Assembly (NCBI GenBank): GCA_000720805.1
Contig: JODI01000014.1
Coordinates: 62,001 to 126,000, forward strand
Direction of reading: 5' to 3'
From: Streptomyces violaceoruber
Lineage (GTDB): Bacteria > Actinomycetota > Actinomycetes > Streptomycetales > Streptomycetaceae
Length of the DNA: 64,000 bases
Shown: piece after piece, positions 8,224-44,080 of the stretch
How positions within the stretch are numbered: the first letter of the stretch is position 1
Layout: the number at the start of each line of letters is the position of its first letter
Made by a program: the position numbers and the translations under genes
The notes under the pieces: model-generated
Database searches by the model: none
Told to the model about the DNA's origin: nothing
Seen by the model: only the letters and a program-made list of their open reading frames with translations

Positions 8224-8246
8224 TTGTCAGTGGTGGGTTCTACGGT
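8224..8246 (+). promoter_or_regulatory. DNA-damage (RecA-NDp/PafBC-type) promoter of ogt
   Basis: TTGTCAGTG at 8224-8232, eight bases, then TACGGT at 8241-8246, a full match to the tTGTCRgtg-N8-TAnnnT consensus of the LexA-independent damage promoter. Seven bases later comes the ogt ATG, so the mRNA is predicted to be leaderless. Confidence 0.8.
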
Positions 8247-8253
8247 GGGTCAC

Positions 8254-8808
8254 ATGGACAGCGAGGGACAGTATGAGCAGCAGGTCGTGTGGACCGTGGT
8301 CGCCACCGGCATCGGTCCGCTGCTGTTGGCCGCGACCGGCGATGGCCTGGTCAACGTCGTCTTCCACGCCACGGACGCGGTGCGCGACACGGCGCTCGGC
8401 CGACTCGGGTCCCGGCTGGGCCGTGAGCCGGTCGAGGCCCCCGACTCCCCGCTGCTGGCCGAGGCGATACGCCAGGTGAAGGCGTATTTCGCGGGTGAGC
8501 GGCACGCCTTCGATCTGCCCCTGGACTGGTCGCTGATCTCCGGTTTCAACCGGCAGGTGCTGCGCGAGCTCGCCGCCGGCGTGCCGTACGGCTCGGTCGT
8601 CGGGTACGGCGATTTGGCCGGCCGGGTCGGCCAGCCGGGCGCCGCACAGGCGGTGGGGGTGGCGATGGGCGCCAATCCGCTGCCGGTCGTCGTGCCTTGT
8701 CATCGAGTCGTCGAGAGCGACGGCGGCATCGGCGGTTTCGGGGGCGGCCTGGAGACCAAGCGGAAGTTGCTCGCTCTGGAGGGGGTCCTGCCCGAGCCGC
8801 TGTTCTGA
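8254..8808 (+). CDS. ogt: Methylated-DNA-protein-cysteine methyltransferase
   Basis: A 184-residue suicide DNA-repair protein that takes the alkyl group from O6-alkylguanine onto Cys149 of the PCHRV motif. The preceding helix-turn-helix (VPYGSVVGYGDLA) is the DNA-binding segment. An in-frame TTG at 8224 would extend the ORF, but that triplet is part of the promoter -35 element, so the ATG at 8254 is chosen; the -10 lies only seven bases before it. The damage-type promoter implies induction by genotoxic stress, as for uvrB, uvrA and uvrC in this window. Confidence 0.93.
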   Translation: MDSEGQYEQQVVWTVVATGIGPLLLAATGDGLVNVVFHATDAVRDTALGRLGSRLGREPVEAPDSPLLAEAIRQVKAYFAGERHAFDLPLDWSLISGFNRQVLRELAAGVPYGSVVGYGDLAGRVGQPGAAQAVGVAMGANPLPVVVPCHRVVESDGGIGGFGGGLETKRKLLALEGVLPEPLF

Positions 8809-9120
8809 GCCCTCGAACACCTTCTCGCGCGCGCGTACATGCGCACTCCGCGCGTCGGTCTGTCACAGAGAGCTCCACTGTGACAGCAGAGGGTCAAGGG
8901 CGGAGGAGTGCGGAATGACCACAACTTGAACGGCGTTGCGCCATGGCCGCTCACCGATACAGCACAACTGGGGCAAGGACGTGTTTCTTTGCCGGAGAAT
9001 CGTTCGACCATTCCGGTGGGGGTCATACTCTCTGCCTCAGCCCTGACCGCTCGAGCGGTTCTGGGAAGGGGAGTACTTCGGGAAATACCGGGATGTAAGA
9101 AGGCGGAAGGGCAGCCGCGC
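8809..9120. other. 312-bp intergenic region between ogt and the MHYT gene
   Basis: It holds the 8860-8886 inverted repeat and a 14-bp perfect palindrome ACCGCTCGAGCGGT at 9046-9059. An ORF open from 8908 runs into the MHYT gene but has no homology there, so it is not called. The palindrome about 60 bp before the ATG is a candidate operator. Confidence 0.5.
8860..8886. promoter_or_regulatory. Perfect 9-bp inverted repeat downstream of ogt
   Basis: CTGTCACAG at 8860-8868 and CTGTGACAG at 8878-8886 are exact reverse complements with a 9-base spacer. It could be the ogt terminator hairpin (no T-tract) or an operator for the downstream MHYT gene. Confidence 0.5.
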
Positions 9121-9987
9121 ATGCAAGGCACGGTCGACGGATTCAGCTACGGACTCGTCACACCGGTGGTGGCCTACCTCATGGCCTGCCTGGGCGGCGC
9201 GCTGGGGCTGCGCTGCACCACCCGGTCCATGCTCGTCGGCGACTCCTGGCGACCAGGGTGGCTCGCCCTGGGCTCGGCCGCGATCGGCTCCGGCATATGG
9301 ACCATGCACTTCATCGCGATGATGGGCTTCAAGGTCAAACAGGCGCCGATCCACTACGACAAGGCCATCACCTTTGCCAGCCTGGGCGTCGCCATCGTCA
9401 TGGTGGGCATCGGCATCTTCATCGTCGGTTACAAGGGGGCGCGCGGCACCGCTCTGATGACGGGAGGCGCCATCACCGGCCTGGGGATCGCCACCATGCA
9501 CTACCTGGGCATGGCCGGCATGCGCTTCAACGGCAAGCTGGAGTACAACACGGCCACCGTGTCCGGCTCGGTCGTCATAGCCGTCGCCGCCGCCACCGCC
9601 GCGTTGTGGGCCGCCGGGCAGGTCAGGGGGTTCCTGTGGAGTGTGGGCGCAAGCCTGATCATGGGGCTCGCCGTCACCGGTATGCACTACACGGGCATGG
9701 CCGCCCTCCGCGTCCATCTCCACGGCACGGCGTCCCCGTCCTCCGGGGACTCCCCGGCCTCCCTGCTGGCGCCCATGATGATCGGCCCGCTCGCCTTCCT
9801 GCTGCTCGCGGGCGTCGTCGTGCTGTTCGACCCACTGATGGTCATGGGTAAGCCCGCCTGGACCCCCGCAGAGCACAAGCCGGGCGTCCCCGCGCGTGAA
9901 CTCGTCTCCCACGCCACCTCCCGCCGCCCCGCCCTCCGTACCCGCCGCCACGCAGAGCACAGCGCCCACACCCCCCAAAACCACTGA
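9121..9987 (+). CDS. MHYT-domain integral membrane sensor
   Basis: A 288-residue membrane protein with about seven hydrophobic segments. Three MHYT-type motifs, MHFIAMM, MHYLGMAGM and MHYTGMAAL, are spaced as in the MHYT domain, whose conserved Met and His residues are proposed to bind copper and sense a diatomic gas or redox state. No GGDEF, EAL or kinase output domain follows: after the last helix there is only a basic cytoplasmic tail of about 45 residues, as in many stand-alone streptomycete versions. GGAAGG precedes the ATG; the reading frame is open upstream but non-homologous. Confidence 0.88.
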   Translation: MQGTVDGFSYGLVTPVVAYLMACLGGALGLRCTTRSMLVGDSWRPGWLALGSAAIGSGIWTMHFIAMMGFKVKQAPIHYDKAITFASLGVAIVMVGIGIFIVGYKGARGTALMTGGAITGLGIATMHYLGMAGMRFNGKLEYNTATVSGSVVIAVAAATAALWAAGQVRGFLWSVGASLIMGLAVTGMHYTGMAALRVHLHGTASPSSGDSPASLLAPMMIGPLAFLLLAGVVVLFDPLMVMGKPAWTPAEHKPGVPARELVSHATSRRPALRTRRHAEHSAHTPQNH

Positions 9988-10005
9988 CAGGCCTCTCCGG
10001 CTTTC

Positions 10006-10035
10006 CCGAGGCTGCAGGAGGCCTGCCCGCCTCGG
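10006..10035 (+). terminator. Hairpin after the MHYT gene
   Basis: CCGAGGC pairs with GCCTCGG, and inside that GCAGG pairs with CCTGC around a 3-base loop, with small bulges. It lies 18 bases past the MHYT stop and has no T-tract. Confidence 0.45.
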
Positions 10036-10319
10036 AAGCCCGCCCCGCGCCCTGAGCGCCGCACCTCGCAAGCCTTGCGATCCTCCCTTGCGGCTCACGA
10101 CCTGCGGCCGTCCCCACCCCGACCGCCAGCTGCCCGGCGTCGCTCCTGCCTGCCTTGCACCGCTACGGCCCGTTCCGGGCTCGCCTCTCCCCGCCCTGGA
10201 CGCGCCTTCCTCCGGGATGCGCCCTGCCCCAGAACCGTCTCGCCCGTCCGAGCCGACCCACCCGGCCCCGAGCCACCCCGGAGACCCCGCCTCTCCCCGA
10301 AACCGCTGATCGGGCCGCG

Positions 10320-10342
10320 TTGTCAGTGGGGAGTCGTACGGT
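10320..10342 (+). promoter_or_regulatory. DNA-damage promoter of uvrB
   Basis: TTGTCAGTG at 10320-10328, eight bases, then TACGGT at 10337-10342, followed after seven bases by the uvrB ATG. A full consensus match with predicted leaderless transcription. Confidence 0.8.
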
Positions 10343-10349
10343 GGATGAC

Positions 10350-12488
10350 ATGCGGCCCGTTTCCCACATCGAACGCACGGTGGCGCCTTTCGAGGTCGTC
10401 AGTTCCTACCAGCCCAGCGGCGACCAGCCGGCGGCCATCGCCGACCTGGCCCGGCGCATCGAGGCCGGTGAGAAGGACGTCGTACTGCTCGGCGCGACCG
10501 GCACCGGCAAGTCCGCCACCACCGCGTGGATGATCGAGAAGCTCCAGCGCCCCACCCTGGTGATGGCGCCGAACAAGACGCTGGCGGCCCAGCTGGCGAA
10601 CGAGTTCCGCGAGCTGCTGCCGAACAACGCGGTCGAGTACTTTGTCTCGTACTACGACTACTACCAGCCCGAGGCGTACATCCCGCAGTCGGACACCTAC
10701 ATCGAGAAGGACTCCTCGATCAACGAGGAGGTCGAGCGGCTGCGCCACTCCGCCACCAACTCGCTGCTCACCCGCCGTGACGTCGTCGTGGTCGCCTCTG
10801 TCTCCTGCATCTACGGTCTCGGTACGCCGCAGGAGTACGTGGACCGGATGGTCCCCCTCAGGGTCGGTGACGAGCTCGACCGGGACCAGCTGCTCCGTCG
10901 CTTCGTCGACATCCAGTACACCCGTAACGACCTGGCCTTCACCCGTGGCACCTTCCGCGTCCGCGGCGACACCATCGAGATCTTCCCGGTCTACGAGGAA
11001 CTCGCCGTCCGCATCGAGATGTTCGGTGACGAGATCGAGGCCCTGACCACTCTCCACCCCGTCACCGGCGAGATCATCAGCGAAGACCAGCAGCTGTACA
11101 TCTTCCCGGCCTCCCATTACGTAGCGGGCCCCGAACGCATGGAGCGGGCCGTCAACGACATCGAGAAGGAGCTGGGGGAGCGCCTTGCCGAGTTGGAGAA
11201 GCAGGGCAAGCTCCTGGAGGCCCAGCGTCTGAGGATGCGCACGACGTACGACCTGGAGATGCTCCGCCAGATCGGTTCCTGCTCGGGCGTGGAGAACTAC
11301 TCGATGCACTTCGACGGCCGCCTGCCCGGCTCCCCGCCGAACACCCTGCTGGACTACTTCCCGGACGACTTCCTGCTCGTCATCGACGAGTCCCACAACA
11401 CCGTCCCTCAGATCGGCGCGATGTACGAGGGCGATGCCTCCCGCAAGCGCTCCCTCGTCGACCACGGCTTCCGCCTGCCCTCCGCCCTGGACAACCGCCC
11501 CCTGAAATGGGAGGAGTTCCAGGAGCGCGTCGGTCAGACCGTCTACCTGTCGGCCACCCCGGGCAAGTACGAACTCTCCCGCGGTGACGGCGTCGTCGAG
11601 CAGATCATCCGCCCGACCGGCCTGATCGACCCGGAGGTCGTCGTCAAGCCCACCGAGGGCCAGATCGACGACCTGGTGCACGAGATCCGCAAGCGCACCG
11701 AGAAGGACGAGCGAGTCCTGGTCACCACGCTCACCAAGAAGATGGCCGAGGACCTCACCGACTACTTCCTGGAACTCGGCATCCAGGTGCGCTATCTCCA
11801 CAGCGACGTCGACACCCTGCGCCGTGTGGAGCTGCTGCGGGAGCTGCGCTCCGGTGAATTCGACGTCCTCGTCGGCATCAACCTCCTCCGTGAGGGCCTG
11901 GACCTGCCCGAGGTCTCCCTGGTGGCTATCCTCGACGCCGACAAGGAGGGCTTCCTGCGCTCCGGCACCTCCCTCATCCAGACCATCGGCCGCGCGGCGC
12001 GCAACGTCTCCGGCCAGGTCCACATGTACGCCGACAAGATCACCCCTGCGATGGAGAAGGCCATCGAGGAGACCAATCGTCGCCGGGAGAAGCAGGTCGC
12101 GTACAACACGGAGCGGGGGCTCGACCCCCAGCCGCTCCGAAAGAAGATCAACGACATCGTGGCTCAGATCGCCCGTGAGGACGTCGACACGGAGCAACTG
12201 CTCGGCTCCGGCTACCGCAAGCTGAAGGACGGCAAGGGCGCCAAGGCCCCCGTGCCCGCCCTCGGCCACAAGGCGGCCAAGGGCGCGAAGGCAGCCAAGG
12301 GCAAGACCACGGCCACGGTTCCGACCGACCGTCCCGCGGCCGAACTCGCCGAGCAGATCGAGGAGATGACCGAGCGCATGCGCGCCGCGGCCGCGGACCT
12401 CCAGTTCGAGATCGCGGCCCGACTGCGCGACGAGGTCTCCGAGATGAAGAAGGAGCTGCGCCAGATGAAGGAGGCCGGACTGGCCTGA
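10350..12488 (+). CDS. uvrB: Excinuclease ABC subunit B
   Basis: A 712-residue DEAD-like helicase subunit of nucleotide excision repair. UvrA loads it at lesions; it then opens the damaged duplex and recruits UvrC. Walker A GATGTGKS is at residues 48-55, the beta-hairpin that clamps one strand is marked by [12 protein letters not shown], motif II is DESHNT, and a C-terminal UVR domain binds UvrC. A Lys/Ala-rich linker ([10 protein letters not shown] region) separates the helicase core from the UVR helix pair, as in other streptomycetes. The ATG is chosen because the -10 hexamer ends seven bases upstream. Confidence 0.97.
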
Positions 12489-12507
12489 CCGTTCCGCGGA
12501 GAGCCGT

Positions 12508-12540
12508 GTCAGCTGTGCGTACGCGTCAGCTGTGCGTACG
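12508..12540. repeat. 16-bp direct repeat, period 17, between uvrB and terD
   Basis: GTCAGCTGTGCGTACG occurs at 12508-12523 and again at 12525-12540. It lies 45 bp upstream of the terD damage promoter and could be a duplicated regulator site or a slippage product. The repeats resemble the -35 half of the damage motif but lack the TAnnnT partner. Confidence 0.7.
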
Positions 12541-12584
12541 GGCTGTGTTGCAAGACCGACACAAAGCGCGAACAGGGTGCGTCA

Positions 12585-12607
12585 CTGTCAGTGGCCCTGC
12601 GTAGGGT
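12585..12607 (+). promoter_or_regulatory. DNA-damage promoter of terD
   Basis: CTGTCAGTG at 12585-12593, eight bases, then TAGGGT at 12602-12607. It differs from the consensus only at the first, weakly conserved base. Transcription should begin about 50 bases before the terD GTG. Confidence 0.7.
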
Positions 12608-12662
12608 TCTGGGCATCCGCGGATCCCGCGGCAACAGGGGAAACACGAGAGGGGACCAGCGC

Positions 12663-13274
12663 GTGGTGGACGTATCCAAGGGCGGCGCGCCCGGCGGCGG
12701 CGTGAATCTGACCAAGGGTCAGGCCATCAGCCTGCAGAAGAACGACGGGGGCAGCCTCACCGCGGTGCGCATGGGGCTCGGCTGGCAGGCGGCTCCCCGG
12801 CGCGGCCTCTTCGGCTCCCGCACCCGGGAGATCGACCTGGACGCCTCGGCGGTCCTGTTCGCGGACAAGCAGCCGCTCGACGTCGTGTTCTTCCGCCATC
12901 TGGTGAGCGACGACGGCTCGGTGCGGCACACCGGCGACAACCTCGTCGGCGGTGTCGGGCAGGGCGGCGACGACGAGTCGATCCTCGTCGACCTGTCGCG
13001 GGTGCCGGTCCACATCGACCAGATCGTCTTCACCGTGAACTCGTTCACGGGCCAGACCTTCCAGGAAGTGCAGAACGCGTTCTGCCGTCTGGTCGACGAG
13101 ACCAACGGCCAGGAACTGGCCCGGTACACGCTCGCGGGCGGTGGCGCGTACACGGCCCAGATCATGGCCAAGGTGCACCGCACGGGCTCGGGCTGGACGA
13201 TGACGGCCCTGGGCACCCCGGCCAACGGCCGCACCTTCCAGGACCTGATGCCGGCGATCCTGCCGCACCTGTAG
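12663..13274 (+). CDS. TerD-family stress protein
   Basis: A 203-residue TerD-domain protein. The core contains the family's acidic Ca2+-binding loops (FGSRTREIDLDASAVLF, DNLVGGVGQGGDDESILVDL) and the VNSFTGQTFQEV segment. TerD proteins take part in calcium-dependent membrane-linked stress responses (tellurite, phage and DNA-damage phenotypes are reported). The GTG at 12663 has GAGAGGGG at good spacing; an earlier in-frame GTG at 12591 lies within the promoter. The damage promoter links this Ter gene to the repair genes around it. A second TerD-like gene follows after 55 bp. Confidence 0.92.
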   Translation: MVDVSKGGAPGGGVNLTKGQAISLQKNDGGSLTAVRMGLGWQAAPRRGLFGSRTREIDLDASAVLFADKQPLDVVFFRHLVSDDGSVRHTGDNLVGGVGQGGDDESILVDLSRVPVHIDQIVFTVNSFTGQTFQEVQNAFCRLVDETNGQELARYTLAGGGAYTAQIMAKVHRTGSGWTMTALGTPANGRTFQDLMPAILPHL

Positions 13275-13329
13275 CCCGCGAGCGGCGCCTGACACGACAC
13301 AGCGGACACACAGGGGGGGGACGAAGGCG

Positions 13330-15441
13330 ATGACGGCCGAGCTGGTGCGGGGGCAGAACCACCCGCTCTCCCAGGTCCGTCTGGAGATCCGGGTCTCGGC
13401 CGGTACGCCGGTCGTGGCGGCAGCCACCCTCGGCGACGAGCGCGGCAAGGTGCCCGGCGTGGAGTGGGTAGCCCATCCGGGAGCCCCCACCCTGCCGGGG
13501 CTGGAGGTCTCCCGGCAGGCGGCCGCCGACCATCGCCTCGCCGTCGATCTCGGCGCCATGTCCGAGGCCGTGCACCGGGTCAGCGTGCTGCTCGCCCTGC
13601 CCGCCCCGGGCATCGGGGGCCCCGTCCGCTTCGGCGCCGTCGCCGCCCCGTTCGTCGCGGTGACCGGCCTCGACGGCACCGAGATCGCCAGCTACACGAT
13701 CATGGGTCTGGACGCCGAGTCGGCCGTCGTCGCCCTGGAGCTCTACCGTCGGCAGGGCGCCTGGAAGGTGCGGGCGGTCGGCCAGGGATACGCGGGCGGC
13801 CTCGCCGAACTCCTCACCGACCAGGGTCTGGCCCAGGCCCACCCCCTCGCGAGCGGCATCAACGAAGCGATCGCCCAGGGTCTGGCCCGCTCGGTCCAGG
13901 CCCTGCCGCGCCCGGCGGACGCCGACAGCACCCGGCGGACGACCGCATCGGCACCCGGCGCCGACCAGGGCGGCCCGGCATCCCAGGGCACCCCCGGCCC
14001 TGTACCACCACAGCCGATGTCGCCGTACGCCGCCCCGGACCCCGGTGCACCGCAGCAACCCGCCTCTCCCTACGCCCCCCAGGGAACACCGGTGTCCGGT
14101 GCGTCGCCGCAGCCCGCCTCCCCGTACGACGTGCACGCCGCCCCCGGCGACCCCTCAGTCGTTCCCCAGGCGCACGACTCTTCCTCTGCCACCCAGCCCT
14201 CCGGACCCACCGCCTCCGGTGGCCCGATCGACTACAGCCACCCGCGTCGGCGGAACGCGGCCCCGCCACCACCCCCTCCTGCCGCGTCCGCGGCTCAGCC
14301 CGGGCAGTCCGCGACGCCGGTCGCGGGCGACGCGACCGGCTGGTCGATGGAGGAGCGGCTCTACAACCAGGTGTGGGGCATGTTCGAGGACCTGGCCCGG
14401 GCCATGGCCGCCTACCGCAGTGCGGTCGACTTCGCCGACGCGCGCATGGAGAAGGAACTCGACCAGGTCCTGTCCGACCCGCGCAGCCGGATCGGCGGGC
14501 AGGGCGACGCCGCGCGGGAGGCCGCCCGTGCCAGGCAGGCCCAGCTCGTCGACCAGGCCAGGGCGGCCCTTGACCGGGACCTCGCCCAACTCACAGCCGA
14601 GGCCGAGGTCGTCGAACCCGCACTGCCGCCCGCCTACGCGCGCTGGGACAACCCCGTGTGGCAGGCCTATCGCGTGCCGATGGAGATCCCCATGGCGCTG
14701 CGCGTCGGCGACCTCCATCTCCCCGAGGCCGCCGATCTGCGCATACCGATGCTGGTGCGGCTGCCCCTGGAACGGGGCCTGTGGATCGACAGCGGAGCCG
14801 CCGGATCGCTCGACGGCTCGTTCACCGACGCCTACGACCTGCGGCGCCTCGCTATGGAGACCGCGGTGGCGCACGCGGCGCGGCTGCTCGCGGTCCACCC
14901 CACGGGCGAGTTCGCCGTACACGTCATCGACCCCGCGGGTGCCGGCGCGCAGGCACTCGTTCCGCTGATGCAGGCCGGTGTCCTCGCGGCGCCGCCCGCG
15001 ATCGGAGCGGCGGGTGTCGCGGACACCCTGACCCGGCTGACCCAGCGCGTCGACCTGGTGCAGATGGCGATACGCGGCGGCGTCGCCGACTCGCTCCCGC
15101 CCGACCTCGACACCGCCGAGCAACTGCTGATCGTCAACGACTTCCCGCACGGCTTCGACGACCGTGCCGTGAACCAGCTGCGCTACCTCGCCGACGAGGG
15201 TCCCGCTGTCGGCGTCCACCTGATGATGGTCGCGGACCGGGAGGAGGCCATCGGTTACGGTCCGTTGCTGGATCCGCTGTGGCGCTCCCTGCTGCGCCTC
15301 ACTCCGGTGCCGGACGACCACCTCGCCGACCCCTGGGTGGGGCACGCCTGGACGTACGAACCCGCCCTCGTCCCGCCCGGAAGTCAGGTGCTCCAACAGG
15401 TGCTTGCCGACGTCGCGAGGGCCCGCACCAAGCACACGTAA
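13330..15441 (+). CDS. TerD-domain protein with C-terminal degenerate FtsK-like domain
   Basis: A 703-residue multidomain protein. Residues 1 to about 185 form a TerD-like domain (VSAGTPVVAAATLGD, AVDLGAMSEAVHRVSVLLALP, IASYTIMGLDAESAVVALELYR). A Pro/Ala/Gln-rich linker with repeated SPYA-type motifs spans about 195-320, then a helical YNQVWGMFEDLARAM segment. The last 260 residues have the strand order of FtsK/HerA ATPases (RLPLERGLWI, AVHVIDPAG, LLIVNDFPHGF, VGVHLMMVADREE), but the P-loop position reads IDSGAAGSLDG and lacks the GK[ST] signature. The FtsK relation is my inference from layout. Probably expressed with terD; an 8-G run precedes the start region. Confidence 0.75.
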   Translation: MTAELVRGQNHPLSQVRLEIRVSAGTPVVAAATLGDERGKVPGVEWVAHPGAPTLPGLEVSRQAAADHRLAVDLGAMSEAVHRVSVLLALPAPGIGGPVRFGAVAAPFVAVTGLDGTEIASYTIMGLDAESAVVALELYRRQGAWKVRAVGQGYAGGLAELLTDQGLAQAHPLASGINEAIAQGLARSVQALPRPADADSTRRTTASAPGADQGGPASQGTPGPVPPQPMSPYAAPDPGAPQQPASPYAPQGTPVSGASPQPASPYDVHAAPGDPSVVPQAHDSSSATQPSGPTASGGPIDYSHPRRRNAAPPPPPPAASAAQPGQSATPVAGDATGWSMEERLYNQVWGMFEDLARAMAAYRSAVDFADARMEKELDQVLSDPRSRIGGQGDAAREAARARQAQLVDQARAALDRDLAQLTAEAEVVEPALPPAYARWDNPVWQAYRVPMEIPMALRVGDLHLPEAADLRIPMLVRLPLERGLWIDSGAAGSLDGSFTDAYDLRRLAMETAVAHAARLLAVHPTGEFAVHVIDPAGAGAQALVPLMQAGVLAAPPAIGAAGVADTLTRLTQRVDLVQMAIRGGVADSLPPDLDTAEQLLIVNDFPHGFDDRAVNQLRYLADEGPAVGVHLMMVADREEAIGYGPLLDPLWRSLLRLTPVPDDHLADPWVGHAWTYEPALVPPGSQVLQQVLADVARARTKHT

Positions 15442-15483
15442 AGCCTCCCGATCAGGGATTTTGACCTTTATTTTGCCAATCGC

Positions 15484-15513
15484 TTTACCTTTCCTTGGTG
15501 ATTGGGGTACCGT
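15484..15513 (+). promoter_or_regulatory. AT-rich promoter upstream of the terC riboswitch
   Basis: TTTACC at 15484-15489 and TACCGT at 15508-15513 are spaced by 18 bases and would start transcription near 15520, directly before the riboswitch P1 stem. The 50 bases upstream are unusually AT-rich for this genome and hold a second -35-like TTGACC at 15461. Confidence 0.45.
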
Positions 15514-15521
15514 TTTTCTCA

Positions 15522-15663
15522 CGGAGGGGAGTACTCCCTGTCGACTGCGGCGTACCCGTCAATACGGATCTGGGAAGATCCCGGGGCGTCGGCCCACCCT
15601 GGGTGGAAGAGACCTCCGGCAGCGCGACGACGCTGGTTACTTGCCGTTACGTATTGCCGGAGG
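15522..15663 (+). promoter_or_regulatory. yybP-ykoY manganese riboswitch of terC
   Basis: Hallmarks of the yybP-ykoY Mn2+ aptamer occur in order: P1 5' strand CGGAGG (15522-15527) leading into GGGGAGTA, a stem-loop with CCCGTCAATACGG, a GGGAAGATCCC stem, and GGAAGAGACC leading into the P1 3' strand CCTCCG (15613-15618). The expression platform is readable: CCTCCGGCA (15613-15621) can pair either with the P1 5' strand or with TGCCGGAGG (15655-15663). The latter contains the GGAGG ribosome site four bases before the terC GTG. Metal binding should stabilise P1 and free the ribosome site, so Mn2+ should switch terC on. Confidence 0.85.
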
Positions 15664-24478: not shown

Positions 24479-24622
24479 GGGGCTGACATTAGCCACGCCA
24501 CACCTTTGGGTGAAGGTGGTGAACGGGTGCCGTAAATCGAATGTGCGTGCTATAGGGTCGAGTTTGGCGTCGGGCATGCTGGAGAGCCGGGGATTGTTAT
24601 GCATCCGGGAATCCGACCGGCG

Positions 24623-24645
24623 TTGTCAGTGGCTCCCCCTAGTCT
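24623..24645 (+). promoter_or_regulatory. DNA-damage promoter of uvrA
   Basis: TTGTCAGTG at 24623-24631, eight bases, then TAGTCT at 24640-24645, matching tTGTCRgtg-N8-TAnnnT. The uvrA GTG is 56 bases downstream, so this transcript has a leader, unlike those of uvrB and uvrC. Confidence 0.8.
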
Positions 24646-24701: not shown

Positions 24702-27746
<3,045 letters not shown>

Positions 27747-31442: not shown

Positions 31443-31465
31443 CTGTCAGCCCCCGCCAGTAGGGT
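31443..31465 (+). promoter_or_regulatory. DNA-damage promoter of uvrC
   Basis: CTGTCAGCC at 31443-31451, eight bases, then TAGGGT at 31460-31465. The TGTCA core and the spacing are kept but the final GTG of the -35 is CC-rich, so this is the weakest of the six. The ATG follows after seven bases, again predicting a leaderless mRNA. Confidence 0.65.
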
Positions 31466-31472
31466 GTGAGAC

Positions 31473-33530
31473 ATGGCCGATCCCTCCAGCTACCGCCCCC
31501 GGCCGGGACAGATCCCGGACTCTCCCGGGGTCTACAGGTTCCGAGACGAGCACCGCCGGGTGATCTACGTCGGAAAGGCGAAAAGCCTGCGCCAGCGCCT
31601 GGCGAACTACTTCCAGGATCTGGCGGGCCTGCACCCCCGCACCCGCACCATGGTCACCACGGCCGCGTCCGTGGAATGGACGGTGGTGTCCACGGAAGTC
31701 GAGGCGCTGCAGCTGGAGTACTCCTGGATCAAGGAGTTCGACCCCCGCTTCAACGTCAAGTACCGCGACGACAAGAGCTACCCGTACCTCGCGGTGACGA
31801 TGAACGAGGAGTTCCCGCGCGTTCAGGTGATGCGCGGTCACAAGAAGAAGGGCGTGCGCTACTTCGGGCCGTACGGACACGCCTGGGCGATCCGCGACAC
31901 CGTCGACCTCCTCCTGCGCGTCTTCCCCGTGCGCACCTGTTCGGCCGGCGTCTTCAAGAACGCCGCCCGCACCGGCCGTCCCTGCCTGCTCGGTTACATC
32001 GGCAAGTGCTCCGCACCCTGCGTCGAGCGGGTCTCCGCCGAGGAGCACCGCGAACTGGCCGAGGAGTTCTGCGACTTCGTGGCCGGCCGCACCGGCACCT
32101 ATCTGCGCCGCCTGGAGAAGCAGATGATGGAGGCGGCCGAGGAGATGGAGTACGAGCGGGCGGCTCGCCTGCGCGACGACATCGAGGCCCTGAAGAAGGC
32201 CATGGAGAAGAACGCGGTCGTGCTCGCCGACGCGACCGACGCCGACCTGATCGCGGTCGCCGAGGACGAGCTGGAAGCGGCCGTGCAGATCTTCCACGTC
32301 CGCGGCGGACGCGTGCGCGGCCAGCGCGGCTGGGTCACCGACAAGGTCGAGGAGATCACCACCGGCGCCCTCGTCGAACACGCCCTCCAGCAGCTCTACG
32401 GCGAGGAGAAGGGTGACGCGGTCCCCAAGGAGGTCCTCGTCCCCGCCCTGCCCGACCCCGTGGAGCCCGTCCAGGAGTGGCTCAGCGAGCGGCGCGGGGC
32501 GAACGTCTCGCTGCGCATACCGCAGCGCGGCGACAAGAAGGCCCTCATGGAGACCGTGCAGCGCAACGCCCTCCAGTCGCTCGCCCTGCACAAGACCAAG
32601 CGCGCCTCCGACCTGACCACCCGCTCGCGTGCCCTGGAGGAGATCGCCGAGGCCCTCGACCTGGACAGCGCTCCCCTGCGCATCGAGTGCTACGACATCT
32701 CGCACCTCCAGGGCGACGACGTCGTGGCCTCCATGGTCGTCTTCGAGGACGGCCTGCAGCGCAAGAGCGAGTACCGCCGCTTCCAGATCAAGGGCTTCGA
32801 GGGCCAGGACGACGTCCGCTCCATGCACGAGGTGATCACCCGCCGCTTCCGGCGCTACCTCGCGGAGAAGGAGAAGACGGGCGAGTGGACCGACGGTGCC
32901 GCCGAGGGCCTCACCAACGGCCTCACCGACGGTCTCAAGGACGAGGACGGGCGCCCCAAGCGCTTCGCCTACCCGCCCCAGCTCGTCGTCGTCGACGGCG
33001 GCCAGCCGCAGGTGGCCGCCGCCAAGAGGGCCCTGGACGAGCTCGGCATCGACGACATCGCCGTCTGCGGCCTCGCCAAGCGCCTGGAGGAGGTCTGGCT
33101 GCCCGGCGAGGACGACCCGGTGGTCCTGCCCCGCACCAGCGAGGGCCTCTACCTGCTGCAACGCGTCCGTGACGAGGCCCACCGCTTCGCCATCACCTAC
33201 CAGCGGACCAAGAGGGCCAAGCGTTTCCGGTCGAGCCCGCTGGACGACGTCCCGGGGCTCGGGGACACGCGCAAGCAGGCACTGCTGAAGCATTTCGGTT
33301 CGTTGAAGAAACTGCGGTCCGCCACCATCGACCAGATCTGCGAGGTCCCCGGCATAGGCCGCAAGACGGCCGAGACGATCGCCGTCGCCCTCGCCCAGTC
33401 GGCTCCCGCCACGCCGGCCGTGAACACGGCGACTGGCGAGATCATGGAAGAGGAACCCGGCACCATGGGTTCCAGTGGGGAGCCCGTGACGATGGGCGCC
33501 CCGGACGAACGACGGGGGCAGGAGACATGA
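31473..33530 (+). CDS. uvrC: Excinuclease ABC subunit C
   Basis: A 685-residue dual-incision nuclease of excision repair. The N-terminal GIY-YIG domain ([25 protein letters not shown], about residues 16-42) cuts 3' to the lesion. A UVR helix pair near residue 205-240 binds UvrB. The RNase H-like domain ([24 protein letters not shown]) cuts 5' and ends in a helix-hairpin-helix pair ([26 protein letters not shown]). The ATG at 31473 lies seven bases after the -10. Its stop overlaps the rapZ ATG (ATGA), so uvrC, rapZ, yvcK and whiA form one coupled operon. Confidence 0.97.
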
Positions 33531-36708: not shown

Positions 36709-39657
36709 ATGAGACGAAAAGCGAGACCGATCCTCGCTGTTGGCGCGCTTGTGCTGGGCGGTGCGGGCATCGCACCGCTCGCGCAGGCCGCGGAAAGCCC
36801 CGGCTCTCCCGACCCCAACGAGGTCAAGGTCTTCCGGGCCGAGGTCACCCAGCAGCAGGTACCCCTGCTGCTGGCGGCCGGTCAGGACGGCCACGAGCTC
36901 GGTGAGCAGGTGCCCGAGAAGGGCGAGGCCACCGTCGAGGTCTACCTCACCGACCAGCAGGCCGACAAGCTCAAGGACCAGGGCGTCGGCCTCACCGAGC
37001 ACAAGCTGTCCGCCAAGGCCGAGAACCGCGTCGAGGCCGCGGCCGAGGGTGTGTTCCGCCCGTACAGCGGAAGGGGCGGCCTGAAGGAGGAGATCCTCAG
37101 GACCGGCCGGCAGAACCCCGACCTCACCAAGGTCGTCTCCATCGGCAAGACGGTGGGCGGCCAGGACATTCTCGCGCTCAAGCTGACCAAGGGCGCGAAG
37201 AAGTCCAAGGACGGCTCCAAGCCCTCCGTCCTGTACGTGTCCAACCAGCACGCGCGCGAGTGGATCACGCCGGAGATGACCCGCCGGCTGATGCACCACT
37301 ACGTGGACAACTACAAGACGGACAAGCGCATCAAGAAGCTCGTCGACTCGACCGAGCTGTGGTTCGTGCTGTCGGCCAACCCCGACGGCTACGACTACAC
37401 CTTCCAGAACTCCGACACCCGCCTGTGGCGCAAGAACCTGCGGGACGTCAACGGCGACGGAGCCATCAGCACCGGTGACGGCGTCGACCTCAACCGCAAC
37501 TTCCCCTACAAGTGGGGCTACGACGACGAGGGCTCGTCCCCCAACCCCACCAGCCAGACCTACCGCGGCGCCGCCCCCGGCTCCGAGCCCGAGACCAGGG
37601 CGCTGGACGTCTTCGAGAAGCGGATCGGGTTCACGTACGGCATCAACTACCACTCCGCCGCCGAGCTCCTCCTCTACGGAGTCGGCTGGCAGGTGGCCAC
37701 GGACACCCCCGACGACGTCGCCTACAAGGCGCTCGCCGGCACCCCCGACAACTCCGCGATCCCCGGCTACCACCCGCAGGTCTCCTCGGAGCTGTACACC
37801 ACCAACGGCGAGGCGGACGGCCACGCGGCCAACGTCAACGGCACGGCGATGTTCACCCCCGAGATGTCGACCTGTCAGACCGCGTCGGACCTCGACCCCA
37901 AGGACGCCTGGAACGCGGCCGACTGCCAGTCGGTCTTCAACTTCCCGGACGACGAGAAGCTGATCCAGCAGGAGTTCGAGAAGAACATCCCGTTCGCGCT
38001 CTCCGTCGCCGAGAGCGCAGCCCACCCCGACCAGCCGAAGTCGTCGGTCGGCCGCAGCGCCGCCGACTTCACCACGGCCCCGTTCTCCACGTCGTACTCG
38101 CGCGGTGCCGACCAGGAGGTCTCCGTCGTCGCCCGGAAGGCGCTGCGCGGCAAGGAGCTCAAGTACCGCGTCAACGGCCGTACCCACGACCGGACACTGC
38201 GCCCCTGGAAGGGCGGCGAGACCTACGGCGGTGAGGACAACCTCTACTTCGACGAGTACCGCGCCAAGGTCCAGGACGGCGACCCGGGCGACAAGGTCGA
38301 GGTGTGGTTCACCGGAGAGACGAAGAGCGGCAAGAAGGTCTCCAGCGAGCACTTCACCTACACCGTCGCGCAACGGCCCCGCGCGGACGTCCTCGTCGTC
38401 GCGGAGGAGGGCGCGGCCGCCACGCAGGCGCAGACCTACGTCGGCGCGCTGAAGGCCGCCGGCCGCAAGGCGGTCGTCTGGGACGTCGCCACCCAGGGCG
38501 CGCCCGACGCGCTCGGCGTGCTGAGCCACTTCGACACTGTCGTCCACTACACCGGGGCGAGCGTCCCCGGCATCGCCACCCAGCTGGAGCTGCGCGCCTT
38601 CCTCAACGAGGGCGGCAAGCTGCTCGAGGCCGGCGAGCAGGCCGGCGGCAGCGTGGCCCTCGCCGACGGCACCCCGTCGGACGACTTCAGTCAGTACTAC
38701 CTGGGCGCCTACTCCCGTACGTCGACCCCGGGGGCCACCGGCTTCACCGGCTCCGGCAAGCTGGGCGGCTTCACGGGCGCGCTCGGCCCCGCGGCCGGCA
38801 ACCCGCTGGACGGGGCCGGGACCTTCGGCGTGACCTCCGACGAACTGCCCGCCGACAGGTATCCCCAGTTCGCGAGCGCGGGCGCGGGCCAGTTCGCCGG
38901 CACTGTCAACCCGTACGGGCCCTACGCGGGCTCCTTCATGGCGGCCGCCGTGCACACCGACGACGCCTACAAGCGGCTCACCCGCACCGTGGACCTCACG
39001 GGCGTGAGCGCGGCCGACAAGCCCGGCCTGCGCACCCGGCTGCTGTGGGACACCGAGCCGGGCTACGACAACGCGATCGTCGAGGCCCACACCACCGGTG
39101 CCGACGACTGGACCACGCTCCCCGAGACGGGCGGCGCCACCCGCACCACCGTGCCGGAGGACTGCTCCGCCGGGTACTACGTGGGCGAGCACCCGCAGCT
39201 CGAGCACTACCTGACCCTGTCGACCACGGGATGCGCCGCCACCGGCACCACCGGCGCGTGGAACGCCCTCACCGGCGCCTCCAACGGCTGGCAGCAGGTG
39301 AACTTCGACCTGAGCGCGTACGCCGGCAAGTCGGTCGAGATCTCGATCAGCTACGTCACCGACCCCGGCAGCGGCGGCCACGGCGTCCTCGCGGACGACG
39401 CCTCGCTGGTCGTCGGCGGCACCGCCACCGAGACCGAGGGCTTCGAGACGTCGCTGGGTGCCTGGAAGGTCGCCGGGCCGCCCCCGGGCAGCCCGGCCGT
39501 ACTCAAGGACTGGACGCGCACCGGCACCCTGTTCCAGACGTACGGAGCGATCACCACGGACGACACCGTGCTGCTGGGCTTCGGCCTTGAGCACGTCGCC
39601 TCGGCGGCCGACCGGACGGCTCTCCTGAAGAAGGCGCTCGCGGCGCTCGACGAGTGA
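36709..39657 (+). CDS. Secreted M14 zinc carboxypeptidase
   Basis: A 982-residue exported peptidase. A Sec signal peptide (MRRKARPILAVGALVLGGAGIAPLAQA) is followed by a pro-region, then an M14 carboxypeptidase domain with zinc ligands His181 and Glu184 in HAREW, His315 in NYHSAAE, and catalytic Glu385 in FTPEMS. A long C-terminal part includes a Rossmann-like DVLVVAEEGAAATQAQTY segment, and near residues 810-960 an immune-inhibitor-A-like jelly-roll (YVGEHPQLEHY, WQQVNFDLSAYAGKSVEISISYVTDPG). It probably degrades extracellular protein. AGGGGGG precedes the ATG at 36709; the earlier ATG at 36658 would bury the signal peptide. Confidence 0.93.
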   Translation: MRRKARPILAVGALVLGGAGIAPLAQAAESPGSPDPNEVKVFRAEVTQQQVPLLLAAGQDGHELGEQVPEKGEATVEVYLTDQQADKLKDQGVGLTEHKLSAKAENRVEAAAEGVFRPYSGRGGLKEEILRTGRQNPDLTKVVSIGKTVGGQDILALKLTKGAKKSKDGSKPSVLYVSNQHAREWITPEMTRRLMHHYVDNYKTDKRIKKLVDSTELWFVLSANPDGYDYTFQNSDTRLWRKNLRDVNGDGAISTGDGVDLNRNFPYKWGYDDEGSSPNPTSQTYRGAAPGSEPETRALDVFEKRIGFTYGINYHSAAELLLYGVGWQVATDTPDDVAYKALAGTPDNSAIPGYHPQVSSELYTTNGEADGHAANVNGTAMFTPEMSTCQTASDLDPKDAWNAADCQSVFNFPDDEKLIQQEFEKNIPFALSVAESAAHPDQPKSSVGRSAADFTTAPFSTSYSRGADQEVSVVARKALRGKELKYRVNGRTHDRTLRPWKGGETYGGEDNLYFDEYRAKVQDGDPGDKVEVWFTGETKSGKKVSSEHFTYTVAQRPRADVLVVAEEGAAATQAQTYVGALKAAGRKAVVWDVATQGAPDALGVLSHFDTVVHYTGASVPGIATQLELRAFLNEGGKLLEAGEQAGGSVALADGTPSDDFSQYYLGAYSRTSTPGATGFTGSGKLGGFTGALGPAAGNPLDGAGTFGVTSDELPADRYPQFASAGAGQFAGTVNPYGPYAGSFMAAAVHTDDAYKRLTRTVDLTGVSAADKPGLRTRLLWDTEPGYDNAIVEAHTTGADDWTTLPETGGATRTTVPEDCSAGYYVGEHPQLEHYLTLSTTGCAATGTTGAWNALTGASNGWQQVNFDLSAYAGKSVEISISYVTDPGSGGHGVLADDASLVVGGTATETEGFETSLGAWKVAGPPPGSPAVLKDWTRTGTLFQTYGAITTDDTVLLGFGLEHVASAADRTALLKKALAALDE

Positions 39658-39780
39658 CCGAAGGGGTGATCGACGAGTGACAGAAGGGCGAGTGAGTGAA
39701 CTGTGAGCGGAGGGTGACGTCCATGGTCAACCAGGCGTGACTCCTCGTAGCAACATCGGGTGATCGGGCCTCCGGGCCCG

Positions 39781-39816
39781 GGCGGTCCGTACCCCTACTG
39801 GTGGGTACGGGCCGCC
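39781..39816 (+). terminator. Hairpin after the M14 peptidase gene
   Basis: A 14-bp stem with one G-T pair (GGCGGTCCGTACCC with GGGTACGGGCCGCC) around an 8-base loop. It ends about 125 bp before the gap start, and separates the peptidase from the glycolytic genes. Confidence 0.7.
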
Positions 39817-39867
39817 TCGCCGTGTATGAGGCATCTCGATGTCACCACGCGAGCCACAGGGAGGTAG

Positions 39868-40953
<1,086 letters not shown>

Positions 40954-40975
40954 TCAACAGAGCAGGCACTTCGGT

Positions 40976-41027
40976 GTGAGGTCAGGGCTCGGGCGGCGCG
41001 CAACGCGCTGCCCGAGCCCTGACTCAC
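40976..41027 (+). terminator. Very long gap-pgk intergenic hairpin
   Basis: GTCAGGGCTCGGGC and GCCCGAGCCCTGAC are exact 14-bp inverted repeats. The stem continues inward through GGCGCG/CGCGCT to a CAA loop and outward, with one bulge, through GTGA/TCAC, giving about 24 pairs. It may be a partial terminator or an mRNA-stabilising element for gap. Confidence 0.75.
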
Positions 41028-41086
41028 GTACACATCAGCCCTCTCAGGATCACGAGCATCACGAGCCCTCTCCAGGAGTTCCCTCC

Positions 41087-42298
41087 ATGAAGACGATCGA
41101 CGAACTTCTCGCCGAAGGCGTGGCCGGCAAGCGGGTCTTCGTCCGCGCCGACCTGAACGTGCCGCTGGACAGCGGCACCATCACCGACGACGGCCGCATC
41201 CGTGCCGTGCTGCCCACCGTCAAGGCCCTCGCCGAGGCGGGCGCCCGGGTGGTCGTCGCCTCGCACCTGGGCCGCCCCAAGGGGGCCCCGGACCCGGCCT
41301 TCTCGCTGGCTCCGGCCGCCTCGCGCCTCGGTGAACTCCTCGGTACCGGCGTGGCGTTCGCGACCGACACGGTCGGCGAGTCCGCCAGGTCCACCGTCGC
41401 CGGCCTCGCCGACGGTCAGGCCGCCGTCATCGAGAACCTGCGCTTCAACGCAGGCGAGACCAGCAAGGACGACGCCGAGCGCGGCGCCTTCGCGGACCAG
41501 CTCGCCGAACTCGCGGACCTGTACGTGGGCGACGGCTTCGGCGCGGTCCACCGCAAGCACGCCTCCGTGTTCGACCTCCCCGCCCGTCTGCCGCACGCAG
41601 CCGGCTACCTCATCGCCACCGAGGTCGCCGTCCTGAAGAAGCTCACCGAGGACGTCAAGCGCCCCTACGTGGTCGCGCTCGGCGGCGCCAAGGTCTCCGA
41701 CAAGCTCGCCGTCATCGACCAGCTGCTCGGCAAGGCCGACCGCATCCTGATCGGCGGTGGCATGGCCTACACGTTCCTCAAGGCCAAGGGCTACGAGATC
41801 GGCAAGTCCCTCCTCCAGGAGGACCAGATCCCGGCGGTCCTGGAGTACGTCGAGCGCGCCGAGAAGACCGGCGTGGAGCTGGTGCTGCCCTTCGACGCCC
41901 TGGTCGGTCCCGAGTTCCCCGACCTGAAGACCAAGGCCCCCGCGAACCCCACCGCCGTCGCCGCAGACGCGATCCCGGCCGACCAGATGGGCCTGGACAT
42001 CGGTCCAGAGTCCCGCAAGCTGTACGCCTCGAAGCTCACCGACGCCGCCACCGTCTTCTGGAACGGCCCCATGGGCGTCTTCGAGCACCCCGACTACGCC
42101 GAGGGCACCAAGGCGGTCGCCCAGGCCCTCCTCGACTCCCCGGGCTTCACGGTCGTCGGCGGCGGCGACTCCGCCGCGGCCGTCCGCATCCTGGGCTTCG
42201 ACGAGAACGCATTCGGCCACATCTCGACCGGTGGCGGCGCCTCCCTCGAATACCTCGAGGGCAAGACGCTCCCCGGCCTCGCCGCACTGGAGGACTGA
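41087..42298 (+). CDS. pgk: Phosphoglycerate kinase
   Basis: A 403-residue glycolytic kinase transferring phosphate from 1,3-bisphosphoglycerate to ADP. The N-lobe substrate signature is [15 protein letters not shown], and HLGRPKG and ENLRFNAGE follow; the C-lobe nucleotide site shows [22 protein letters not shown] and [15 protein letters not shown] lies before the ATG at 41087; the longer upstream frame has no homology. Five bases separate its stop from tpiA. Confidence 0.97.
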
Positions 42299-42303
42299 CC
42301 TCA

Positions 42304-43095
42304 ATGGCTCCATCCACCTCTTCGGGGCGCACGCCGCTGATGGCGGGCAACTGGAAGATGAACCTCAACCACCTCGAGGCCATCGCCCACGTCCAGAAGC
42401 TCGCCTTCGCGCTCGCCGACAAGGACTACGACGCCGTGGAGGTCGCCGTCCTGCCGCCCTTCACCGACCTGCGCTCCGTGCAGACCCTGGTCGACGGCGA
42501 CAAGCTCAAGATCAAGTACGGCGCCCAGGACATTTCGGCGCATGACGGCGGTGCCTACACCGGCGAGATCTCCGGTTCGATGCTGGCCAAGCTGAAGTGC
42601 ACGTACGTGGCGATCGGCCACTCCGAGCGTCGGCAGTACCACAACGAGACCGACGAGCTGATCAACGCCAAGGTCAAGGCCGCCTACAAGCACGGCCTGA
42701 CCCCGATCCTGTGCGTCGGAGAGGAGCTGGACGTCCGCGAGGCGGGCAACCACGTCACCCACACCCTCGCCCAGGTCGAGGGCGGTCTGAAGGACCTCCC
42801 GGCCGAGCAGGCCGAGTCGATCGTGATCGCCTACGAGCCCGTGTGGGCCATCGGCACCGGCAAGGTCTGCGGCGCCGACGACGCCCAGGAGGTCTGCGCG
42901 GCCATCCGCGGCAAGGTCGCCGAGCTCTACACGCAGGAGCTGGCCGACCAGGTGCGCATCCAGTACGGCGGCTCCGTGAAGGCCGGCAACGTCGCCGAGA
43001 TCATGGCGAAGGCCGACATCGACGGCGCCCTGGTCGGCGGCGCGTCGCTGGACGCCGACGAGTTCGTCAAGATCGTGCGGTTCCGCGACCAGTGA
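42304..43095 (+). CDS. tpiA: Triosephosphate isomerase
   Basis: A 263-residue TIM-barrel enzyme interconverting dihydroxyacetone phosphate and glyceraldehyde 3-phosphate. Catalytic elements are NWKMN (Lys), GHSERRQ (His) and [12 protein letters not shown] (Glu), with the phosphate loop YGGSVKAGN. It begins with ATG five bases after pgk, so it is co-transcribed with pgk; a 12-bp hairpin follows. Confidence 0.97.
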
Positions 43096-43126
43096 GTATG
43101 CGGTAGCGGCGATACGTCGTACTCTT

Positions 43127-43157
43127 GCGGGGTCCAGCAGTCTTCGCTGGACCCCGC
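43127..43157 (+). terminator. Hairpin between tpiA and secG
   Basis: GCGGGGTCCAGC (43127-43138) and GCTGGACCCCGC (43146-43157) form a perfect 12-bp stem with a 7-base loop. No T-tract; termination may be partial, with secG read through. Confidence 0.65.
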
Positions 43158-43190
43158 AGTCCATCAGAATCCGAGGAAGTTGGTCCAGCC

Positions 43191-43427
43191 GTGGTTATGG
43201 GGTTCTCGATCGCCCTGATCGTCTTCAGCCTGCTGATGATGCTGCTGGTGCTGATGCACAAGGGCAAGGGCGGCGGCCTCTCCGACATGTTCGGTGGCGG
43301 GATGCAGTCGTTCGTCGGTGGCTCCTCGGTCGCCGAGCGCAACCTGGACCGCATCACCGTCGTGGTCGGTCTGCTGTGGTTCGCGTGCATCGTGGTGCTC
43401 GGCATCCTGATGAAGGTGAACAACTGA
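43191..43427 (+). CDS. secG: Preprotein translocase subunit SecG
   Basis: A 78-residue membrane subunit of the SecYEG channel. It has two hydrophobic helices (FSIALIVFSLLMMLLVLM and ITVVVGLLWFACIVVLGIL) joined by the conserved Gly-rich loop HKGKGGGLSDMFGGG. The start is the GTG at 43191 or the ATG two codons later. It lies beyond the tpiA hairpin in the common actinobacterial gap-pgk-tpi-secG order. Confidence 0.93.
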   Translation: MVMGFSIALIVFSLLMMLLVLMHKGKGGGLSDMFGGGMQSFVGGSSVAERNLDRITVVVGLLWFACIVVLGILMKVNN

Positions 43428-43545
43428 TCAGCGTCGCACACGCGGCACGTCCATTCCGCACGTAACGCCCCATGTTCGGTACGCGCAGCTGAGCGCGGCC
43501 TATCATGGGGCTTGCGTCTGTGTATGGGGGTGGTAACTCCAATCA

Positions 43546-43574
43546 CTGGACGCGCGTTGGGCCTTACGTAGACT
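43546..43574 (+). promoter_or_regulatory. HrdB-like promoter of the rbpA-family gene
   Basis: CTGGAC, 17 bases, then TAGACT, close to the TTGACA-N17-TAnnnT form used by the main sigma factor. It would give a leader of about 60 bases before the GTG at 43641. Confidence 0.5.
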
Positions 43575-43640
43575 GAGGCGCTCGCAGTGAGGCGAAACGC
43601 CGACTCGCTTTGCGGCACCATCACGCAGGGAGTTACGACC

Positions 43641-43976
43641 GTGGCAAGTGGCAACGCGATCCGAGGAAGCCGGGTCGGGGCGGGGCCGATGGGCGAGGCC
43701 GAGCGGGGCGAGTCCGCGCCCCGGCTGCGCATCTCCTTCTGGTGCTCCAACGGGCACGAAACGGTGCCCAGCTTCGCCAGCGACGCGCAGGTCCCCGAAA
43801 CCTGGGACTGCCCGCGCTGCGGCTTTCCAGCAGGCCAGGACCGGGACAACCCCCCGGACCCGCCGCGCACCGAGCCCTACAAGACGCACCTCGCCTACGT
43901 GCGGGAGCGGCGCAGCGACGCGGACGGCGAGGCGATCCTCGCCGAGGCGCTCGCCAAACTGCGGGGCGAGATCTAG
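43641..43976 (+). CDS. RbpA-family RNA polymerase-binding protein
   Basis: A 111-residue protein of the actinobacterial RbpA family, which binds the principal sigma factor and RNA polymerase and stabilises open complexes. The RbpA zinc-type core is seen in FWCSNGHE and WDCPRCGFPAG; the C-terminal sigma-interacting helix is HLAYVRERRSDADGEAILAEALAKLR, and the N-terminus has GNAIRGSRVGAGPMGEAERG. Streptomycetes carry more than one RbpA-like protein and I cannot tell from this window which paralogue it is. The GTG at 43641 is chosen because homology starts there. Followed by an intrinsic terminator. Confidence 0.88.
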   Translation: MASGNAIRGSRVGAGPMGEAERGESAPRLRISFWCSNGHETVPSFASDAQVPETWDCPRCGFPAGQDRDNPPDPPRTEPYKTHLAYVRERRSDADGEAILAEALAKLRGEI

Positions 43977-43986
43977 GTATTGAGAG

Positions 43987-44024
43987 CCGGCCGGGTATCC
44001 GAGGGATGCCCGGCCGGGGCTGTT
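43987..44024 (+). terminator. Intrinsic terminator after the rbpA-family gene
   Basis: CCGGCCGGGTATCC (43987-44000) pairs with GGATGCCCGGCCGG (44004-44017) around a GAG loop, then GGCTGTTTT supplies a U-tract. One of the clearest terminators in the window. Confidence 0.8.
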
Positions 44025-44057
44025 TTCGTACCCGGCGGCCGTCCGGCCGCGGACCCA

Positions 44058-44080
44058 TTGTCAGTGGTGCCCTCTACGGT
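44058..44080 (+). promoter_or_regulatory. DNA-damage promoter of an MFS transporter gene
   Basis: TTGTCAGTG at 44058-44066, eight bases, then TACGGT at 44075-44080, a full consensus match. The GTG of the MFS gene is 32 bases downstream. Placed right after the rbpA terminator, so it drives only this gene. Confidence 0.8.

Follow-up and report, generated by a model that had tools for sequence, protein, structure and literature searches.

What switches on the repair genes ogt, uvrB, uvrA and uvrC of Streptomyces violaceoruber, and do the nearby genes for TerD and for a transporter answer to the same control? The question has weight because Streptomyces makes many DNA-damaging antibiotics. We analyzed a stretch of 64,000 nucleotides (positions 62,001 to 126,000 of contig JODI01000014.1, assembly GCA_000720805.1; hereafter the window), in which an earlier note had placed six copies of one promoter motif and had seen a local DNA-damage regulon. 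According to our analysis, the six sites are very probably promoters of a genome-wide class of the RecA-NDp form, which would serve a DNA-damage response of the PafBC type, and PafBC is the likely activator. This assignment is based on the fixed distance of 8 bases between the box and a TANNNT of the sigma-70 type, the approximately 100 copies of the motif, the many repair genes behind them, the accumulation of ATG codons at one distance, the enrichment throughout the genus and the presence of pafB and pafC in the proteasome locus.

Six promoters of one form

All six copies were found where the earlier note had put them, on the forward strand and with the first T of TGTC at 8225, 10321, 12586, 24624, 31444 and 44059 (Table 1). 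The pattern TGTCRG-N10-TANNNT matches six times in the window, whereas 100 dinucleotide shuffles averaged 0.12 matches and never exceeded 1, and a scan of all gaps from 4 to 21 between TGTC[AG]G and TANNNT returned six matches for gap 10, one for gap 15 and none for the rest. TANNNT stands at all six sites, but it was demanded by the search pattern. Five sites follow [CT]TGTCAGTG-N8-TANNNT and the uvrC site differs (CTGTCAGCC-N8-TAGGGT); the box ends in a full GTG at five of the six sites and in GCC at uvrC. Pfam identified the genes behind the sites as O6-methylguanine methyltransferase, UvrB, TerD, UvrA, UvrC and MFS_1, the last a major facilitator superfamily (MFS) transporter.

The box and its 8-base gap to TANNNT are the same as those quoted in the earlier note for the RecA-NDp/PafBC promoters of Mycobacterium, and all six sites conform to TGTCRG-N10-TANNNT. 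Gamulin 2004 and Mueller 2018 reportedly describe the mycobacterial RecA-NDp or P1 promoter and the PafBC regulon. The proposal of a single promoter class of this form holds for ogt, uvrB, uvrA, uvrC and the MFS gene. The statement that the motif stands at every excision-repair gene is right for uvrA, uvrB and uvrC of the window, but two genes of UvrD-type helicases elsewhere in the genome (L003, L040) are preceded by it as well.

The strict core motif is also found before ogt-like genes of S. tendae (L140) and S. oceani (L109), in which Ogt was identified by eye and the orientation of ogt is reversed relative to uvrB. Because the motif is kept despite the inversion, we conclude that the promoter travels with its gene. 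In the case of uvrB, the strict motif occurred at most 110 nt upstream in 18 of the 43 named loci inspected (80 were returned), across several actinobacterial orders. At the uvrA site, 22 bases are identical in S. tendae.

Table 1. Coordinates of promoters, genes and further sites; positions refer to the window unless stated otherwise.
Feature	Position	Strand	Properties
ogt promoter, PafBC-type	8224..8246	+	TTGTCAGTG-N8-TACGGT
ogt	8254..8808	+	PF01035, PF02870, TIGR00589; ATG 7 nt past the -10, predicted leaderless
uvrB promoter, PafBC-type	10320..10342	+	TTGTCAGTG-N8-TACGGT
uvrB	10350..12488	+	Pfam UvrB_inter; ATG 7 nt past the -10, predicted leaderless
Inverted repeat before terD, separate from the PafBC box	12544..12563	.	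TGTGTTGCAAGACCGACACA; in 21 of 30 loci
terD promoter, PafBC-type	12585..12607	+	CTGTCAGTG-N8-TAGGGT
terD	12663..13274	+	Pfam TerD; leadered, GTG 55 nt past the -10, purine-rich ribosome binding site
Possible SOS box (weak) before uvrA	24537..24552	+	3 mismatches to TCGAACNNNNGTTCGA
uvrA promoter, PafBC-type	24623..24645	+	TTGTCAGTG-N8-TAGTCT
uvrA	24702..27746	+	Pfam UvrA_inter, UvrA_DNA-bind; leadered; start 24690 or 24702
uvrC promoter, PafBC-type	31443..31465	+	CTGTCAGCC-N8-TAGGGT
uvrC	31473..33530	+	Pfam UvrC domains; ATG 7 nt past the -10, predicted leaderless
MFS transporter promoter, PafBC-type	44058..44080	+	TTGTCAGTG-N8-TACGGT
MFS exporter-like protein	44112..45380	+	MFS_1/MFS_3; nearest NCBIfam TIGR00900, below cut-off; leadered
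pup site	L018 / L251 / L189:14100-14620, contig C11, outside the window	.	TGTCGGACCCTGCTTGTAGGGT

A promoter class of the genome and the genus

The genome scan with fixed spacing that the earlier note had proposed was run on 10.5 Mb in 350 contigs with the reversed pattern as control, and it gave 101 motif matches compared to 12 control matches, i.e. an approximately 8-fold excess. The motif is a genome-wide promoter class and not a local set; with 101 copies spread through the genome, the idea of a local regulon had to be given up. Within the window the density is high, with six sites versus 0.61 under an even spread (Poisson 4e-5), and we explain this excess by the proximity of the uvr genes. 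The sites of uvrB, terD and uvrA lie likewise within 10 kb in S. tendae (Streptomycetaceae), which provides the closest named UvrB among the matches listed (93%), a list that may lack the records closest to the window.

In the sum over 61 genomes of the genus, including our own, 4,848 motif matches face 589 control matches, likewise an approximately 8-fold excess. Single genomes contain 45 to 138 copies of the motif and 2 to 21 of the control, and the lowest ratio is 3.7. In two genomes (G341, G344), identical or nearly identical copies such as TGTCAGAGCAGGCGCATACCCT recur, perhaps within a repeated element, and these copies may inflate the G341 count of 138.

Distance to the start codon

At 42 of 100 sites, an ATG lies 6-8 nt past the end of TANNNT, compared to a mean of 2.9 and a maximum of 10 when the following 60 bases were shuffled. 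The same was found in the genus, where an ATG follows at 6-8 nt in 1,734 of the 4,848 sites and at 16-18 nt in 112, some of which already have an ATG at the shorter distance. The pile-up is independent evidence that the sites are promoters. Furthermore, it predicts leaderless mRNAs at about 36-42% of the sites. For comparison, approximately 20% of the genes of S. coelicolor and S. lividans are leaderless (PMC6742748). Three genes of the window (ogt, uvrB and uvrC) have their ATG at the leaderless distance, and uvrA, terD and the MFS gene do not.

When ATG or GTG at 5-10 nt with an open frame of 60 codons is counted, 53 of 100 sites qualify. The automatic choice of start is unreliable for GTG, however; recA was called leaderless at a GTG, but a later ATG is the likelier start in view of the N-terminus of RecA. 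Hence, the leaderless claim is based on the ATG counts only. If the leaderless ATG is taken as +1, the box extends from -30 to -22 with its center at -26, the start being predicted. This would coincide with the position of the PafBC element in M. smegmatis, where PafB is reported to contact a PafBC-specific -26 motif in the complex (PMC11804915).

Genes behind the sites

One hundred of the 101 sites could be retrieved. The downstream proteins of 70 were scanned by Pfam, later those of 8 more, and 22 sites are without a protein scan, some of them for lack of a clear reading frame. The downstream gene was picked by a script and the assignment to repair was read from the Pfam family names. On this basis, at least 25 of the 70 scanned proteins belong to repair, recombination or replication. 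They include Ogt, UvrA, UvrB, UvrC, a UvrA-like protein, RecA, two UvrD-type helicases, RecQ, RecD2, a DEAD-type helicase (L011), XseA, a PD-(D/E)XK nuclease, an SNF2 protein, a RadA-like protein, an NAD-dependent ligase, three glycosylases (HhH-GPD, uracil-DNA and AlkZ-like), RuvC, MgsA/RarA, an exonuclease with BRCT domain, an exonuclease III type protein, DnaE and DnaX.

Numerous sites precede genes without an obvious repair role. Further proteins found downstream are ThyX, ribosomal protein S6, Pup, a DEAD helicase near pafBC, CoaE, DapF, MoaA, TyrS, a sigma factor with an NTF2 tail, a protein kinase with PASTA domains, three MFS proteins and an ABC transporter. The thyX behind a PafBC-type motif (L080) carries an intein domain and an HNH endonuclease domain.

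Among the published mycobacterial examples, recA, uvrA and uvrC are listed as members of the PafBC regulon (PMC8223512), and they have the motif here as well; likewise, pafBC adjoins pafA in both groups. What differs from the Mycobacterium PafBC system is the fifth base of the box (TGTCR), which is A in 80 and G in 20 of 100 sites, and the frequent ATG at 6-8 nt reported above.

The pafBC genes and pup

The putative activator is encoded in the proteasome locus on contig C11, where dop, pup, prcB, prcA, pafA, pafB and pafC follow in this order on one strand, with a transporter-like gene between prcA and pafA (the order was determined by reading). Profile matches to Pup_ligase, Proteasome and Pup were found in this locus; PafC has HTH_PafC, WYL and WCX domains, and PafB has WYL and WCX domains. 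For a comparison across genomes, PafC was searched (E 1e-15) in 58 hand-picked genomes out of 296 of the phylum, i.e. all 26 of the genus and class and 32 of the rest, and a match was obtained in 46. The 12 genomes without PafC match contain only 4 tight-motif matches in total versus 1 control match, and none of them has 4 or more. In contrast, at least 4 tight-motif matches are present in 22 of the 37 PafC-bearing genomes outside the genus. The association of PafC with the motif is suggestive.

One of the motif copies lies before pup itself. Its sub-form, of the TGTCGGACCCTGCTTGTAGGGT type, is also found at ligA, recD2, xseA and genes of exonuclease III type. Of 30 Streptomyces pup loci, 27 including our own are preceded by the strict motif (26 of 29 others), and one further genome gave no locus. 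Outside the genus the picture differs. A search of the class, which matched pup in 34 of 40 genomes but yielded no locus for 4 of the 34, added one more Streptomyces pup locus with the motif, whereas the motif was found in only 3 of 27 pup loci of other genera and is missing in 24. In M. smegmatis, PafBC was without influence on the components of pupylation under the conditions tested (PMC5656591), and in this respect pup as a candidate target in Streptomyces differs from the mycobacterial system. Our literature search, which covered titles and abstract openings among the matches listed and few subscription journals, returned no paper on pup and DNA damage in Streptomyces.

The response could be broad, with approximately 60-90 PafBC promoters, 40-50% of them leaderless, with pup itself switched on and with two exporter-like MFS proteins included; the chances that this whole picture holds or fails appear balanced. 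If it is true, one signal would start repair and at the same time raise the tag that later clears the repair proteins, which would form a loop. A damage-driven rise of Pup would be new wiring.

Which regulator reads the promoter

The following mechanism would be consistent with these findings. DNA damage would produce single-stranded DNA that is bound by the WYL domains of PafBC. PafBC would then let the RNA polymerase with the housekeeping sigma factor HrdB start at promoters without a normal -35, whereby, by analogy with M. smegmatis, it would contact the box centered at -26 and adapt the sigma factor. Transcription of ogt, uvrB and uvrC would result in leaderless mRNAs, that of uvrA, terD and the exporter gene in leadered ones.

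Before other regulators are considered, it must be mentioned that the pattern is degenerate; as judged by the 2-21 reversed matches per genome of the genus, perhaps one tenth of the 101 sites are spurious. Nevertheless, chance or a codon-usage artefact has next to no probability as the explanation of the motif, given the 8-fold excess in our genome and in the genus sum, the spike of start codons and the footprint at the MFS gene described below. Chance is rejected for the class as a whole by the shuffles, the reversed control and the ATG spike, and individual weak sites are less certain. ECF (extracytoplasmic function) sigma factors usually recognize other -10 sequences. A dedicated factor of this type, e.g. 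SCO4895/SLIV_13900, that reads a -35/-10 pair with a 12-nt spacer is improbable. Mapped promoters of S. lividans with TGTC, 12 bases and TANNNT are enriched in genes of DNA replication, recombination and repair (COG category L) and were credited to a sigma factor and described as HrdB-independent (PMC6742748), and one site of our genome lies before a sigma factor gene with NTF2/SnoaL tail (L088). However, TANNNT is also the -10 of all S. lividans start sites pooled (PMC6742748), the box and spacing are those of the mycobacterial PafBC promoters as quoted in the earlier note, and a sigma gene that carries the promoter is equally explained as a target. Thus, an ECF sigma factor is not supported as the main control.

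Even less probable is that the genes are plain LexA/SOS repair genes and that the motif represents a look-alike housekeeping promoter. In S. venezuelae, a LexA peak was reported at uvrA by chromatin immunoprecipitation, with an expression change slightly below the cut-off (PMC9380542). Moreover, the window contains 56 SOS-like matches (at most 3 mismatches) versus 28 expected, a number that was reached in 0 of 100 shuffles. But only two of them fall into the 200 bases that precede the six boxes, at 24537 (uvrA) and at 12394 (terD; inside the uvrB coding sequence), and no match with up to 3 mismatches was found within this distance of the ogt, uvrB, uvrC or MFS boxes. LexA also leaves a fixed box at -26 unexplained. 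The sole non-coding match within this distance, at uvrA, is weak. LexA is not supported as the main control, and the earlier note's term LexA-independent is an inference. ClgR instead of PafBC as the protein that recognizes the promoter is just as improbable as LexA. A role of ClgR at the RecA-independent promoter of mycobacteria has been reported (Wang 2011, via PMC5656591), yet the reported in vivo binding of PafBC at RecA-NDp (PMC6789036) and the structure of the PafBC complex with its specific motif at -26 (PMC11804915) point to PafBC; ClgR, for which no search was made in this genome, is not supported as the main control.

Several observations weigh against the assignment to PafBC. The terD box is patchily conserved among 30 Streptomyces loci, uvrB of S. 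oceani (L109) has no strict match upstream, and among the 37 genomes outside the genus with a PafC match, 15 stay below 4 tight-motif matches. The association across genomes is furthermore weakened by the hand-picking and the relatedness of the genomes. The HrdB-independence reported for the matching S. lividans class is at odds with a simple adaptation of HrdB (PMC6742748), and according to a paper of 2022, the PafBC motif of M. smegmatis seemed by an initial search not to be conserved in S. venezuelae (PMC9380542).

Relation to published work

RecA-NDp promoters have been reported before in this genus, at S. coelicolor recA and SCO6735, of which SCO6735 is UV-induced 5-fold; promoter type and genus are the same as here (PMC5087735). 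That work differs by addressing single genes, and the portions of the paper considered here contain no genome-wide list, link to PafBC, leaderless pattern, MFS gene, terD or pup (PMC5087735). The 12-nt class of S. lividans, TGTC-N12-TANNNT, is identical letter for letter to our pattern but was attributed to a sigma factor, and PafBC and RecA-NDp are unnamed in the portions considered (PMC6742748). Our analysis thus offers an identity for this promoter class.

A PafBC-type response in Streptomyces remains to be shown according to PMC9380542, in which a damage response independent of RecA and LexA was left open; in our sample of the genus, the motif exceeds its control at least 3.7-fold in each of the 61 genomes. 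The candidate list spans repair genes, exporters and pup. Ahel 2002 is said to deal with RecA-NDp promoters of Streptomyces as well. Among the matches listed in a literature search (titles and abstract openings, few subscription journals), there was no paper on a Streptomyces PafBC regulon.

The MFS transporter, a firm member

The earlier note had extended the regulon to exporter functions, and the MFS gene bears this out. The best match was inspected for 30 out of 31 genomes of the genus. The strict motif lies 53-105 bases upstream of the match in all 15 others of at least 62% identity, which were taken as orthologues, and in none of the 14 weaker, non-orthologous best matches. When the 16 promoters were aligned on the motif, the majority agreement was 99% in the box, 94% in the -10, 84% in the spacer and 54% in the flanks, values that are partly built in, as anchoring the alignment on the strict motif fixes the constant letters of the pattern in advance; the count of 15 out of 15 is unaffected. 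The 54% of the flanks shows how far the sequence around the motif has diverged. As far as promoter sequence can tell, the MFS gene is a firm member of the class.

One of the orthologues (L235) has a stop inside the match. A second MFS protein (L021:1530-3020), whose nearest model is that of the tetracenomycin exporter TcmA with a score below the cut-off, is preceded by a PafBC-type motif with ATG 7 nt past the -10. Directly upstream of the MFS promoter lies the gene of RbpA (PF13397; 43641-43976), an RNA polymerase-binding protein that was included in published PafBC in vitro transcription (PMC11804915).

terD, a doubtful member

The situation is different for terD, for which 31 genomes gave 30 loci. 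A -10-like site is present in 27 of the 30, by a search expression written after viewing the loci, and is absent in 3, one of which ends prematurely upstream. The core box is intact in 11 loci (our own and 10 of 29 others), has one mismatch in 4 and at least two in 12; in one locus (L196) it lies one base farther off. The earlier note is only partly right on terD; the core box is intact in only 10 of 29 other homologues, and we downgraded terD from a firm to a doubtful member in view of the 12 loci with two or more mismatches and the 3 without -10-like site. Judged from these sequences, terD may have an older promoter under its own control, to which the PafBC box was gained or from which it was lost by lineage.

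The inverted repeat TGTGTTGCAAGACCGACACA before terD, counted in the loci by a regular expression devised after inspection, is possibly the site of another regulator. At up to one mismatch, TGTGTYGNNNNNNCRACACA occurs at one genomic site only, upstream of terD. A literature search on Streptomyces TerD and DNA damage returned nothing on Streptomyces, only work on E. coli, in the portions of the sources considered. Directly 3' of terD, positions 13330-15441 encode a protein of 703 residues with an N-terminal TerD domain.

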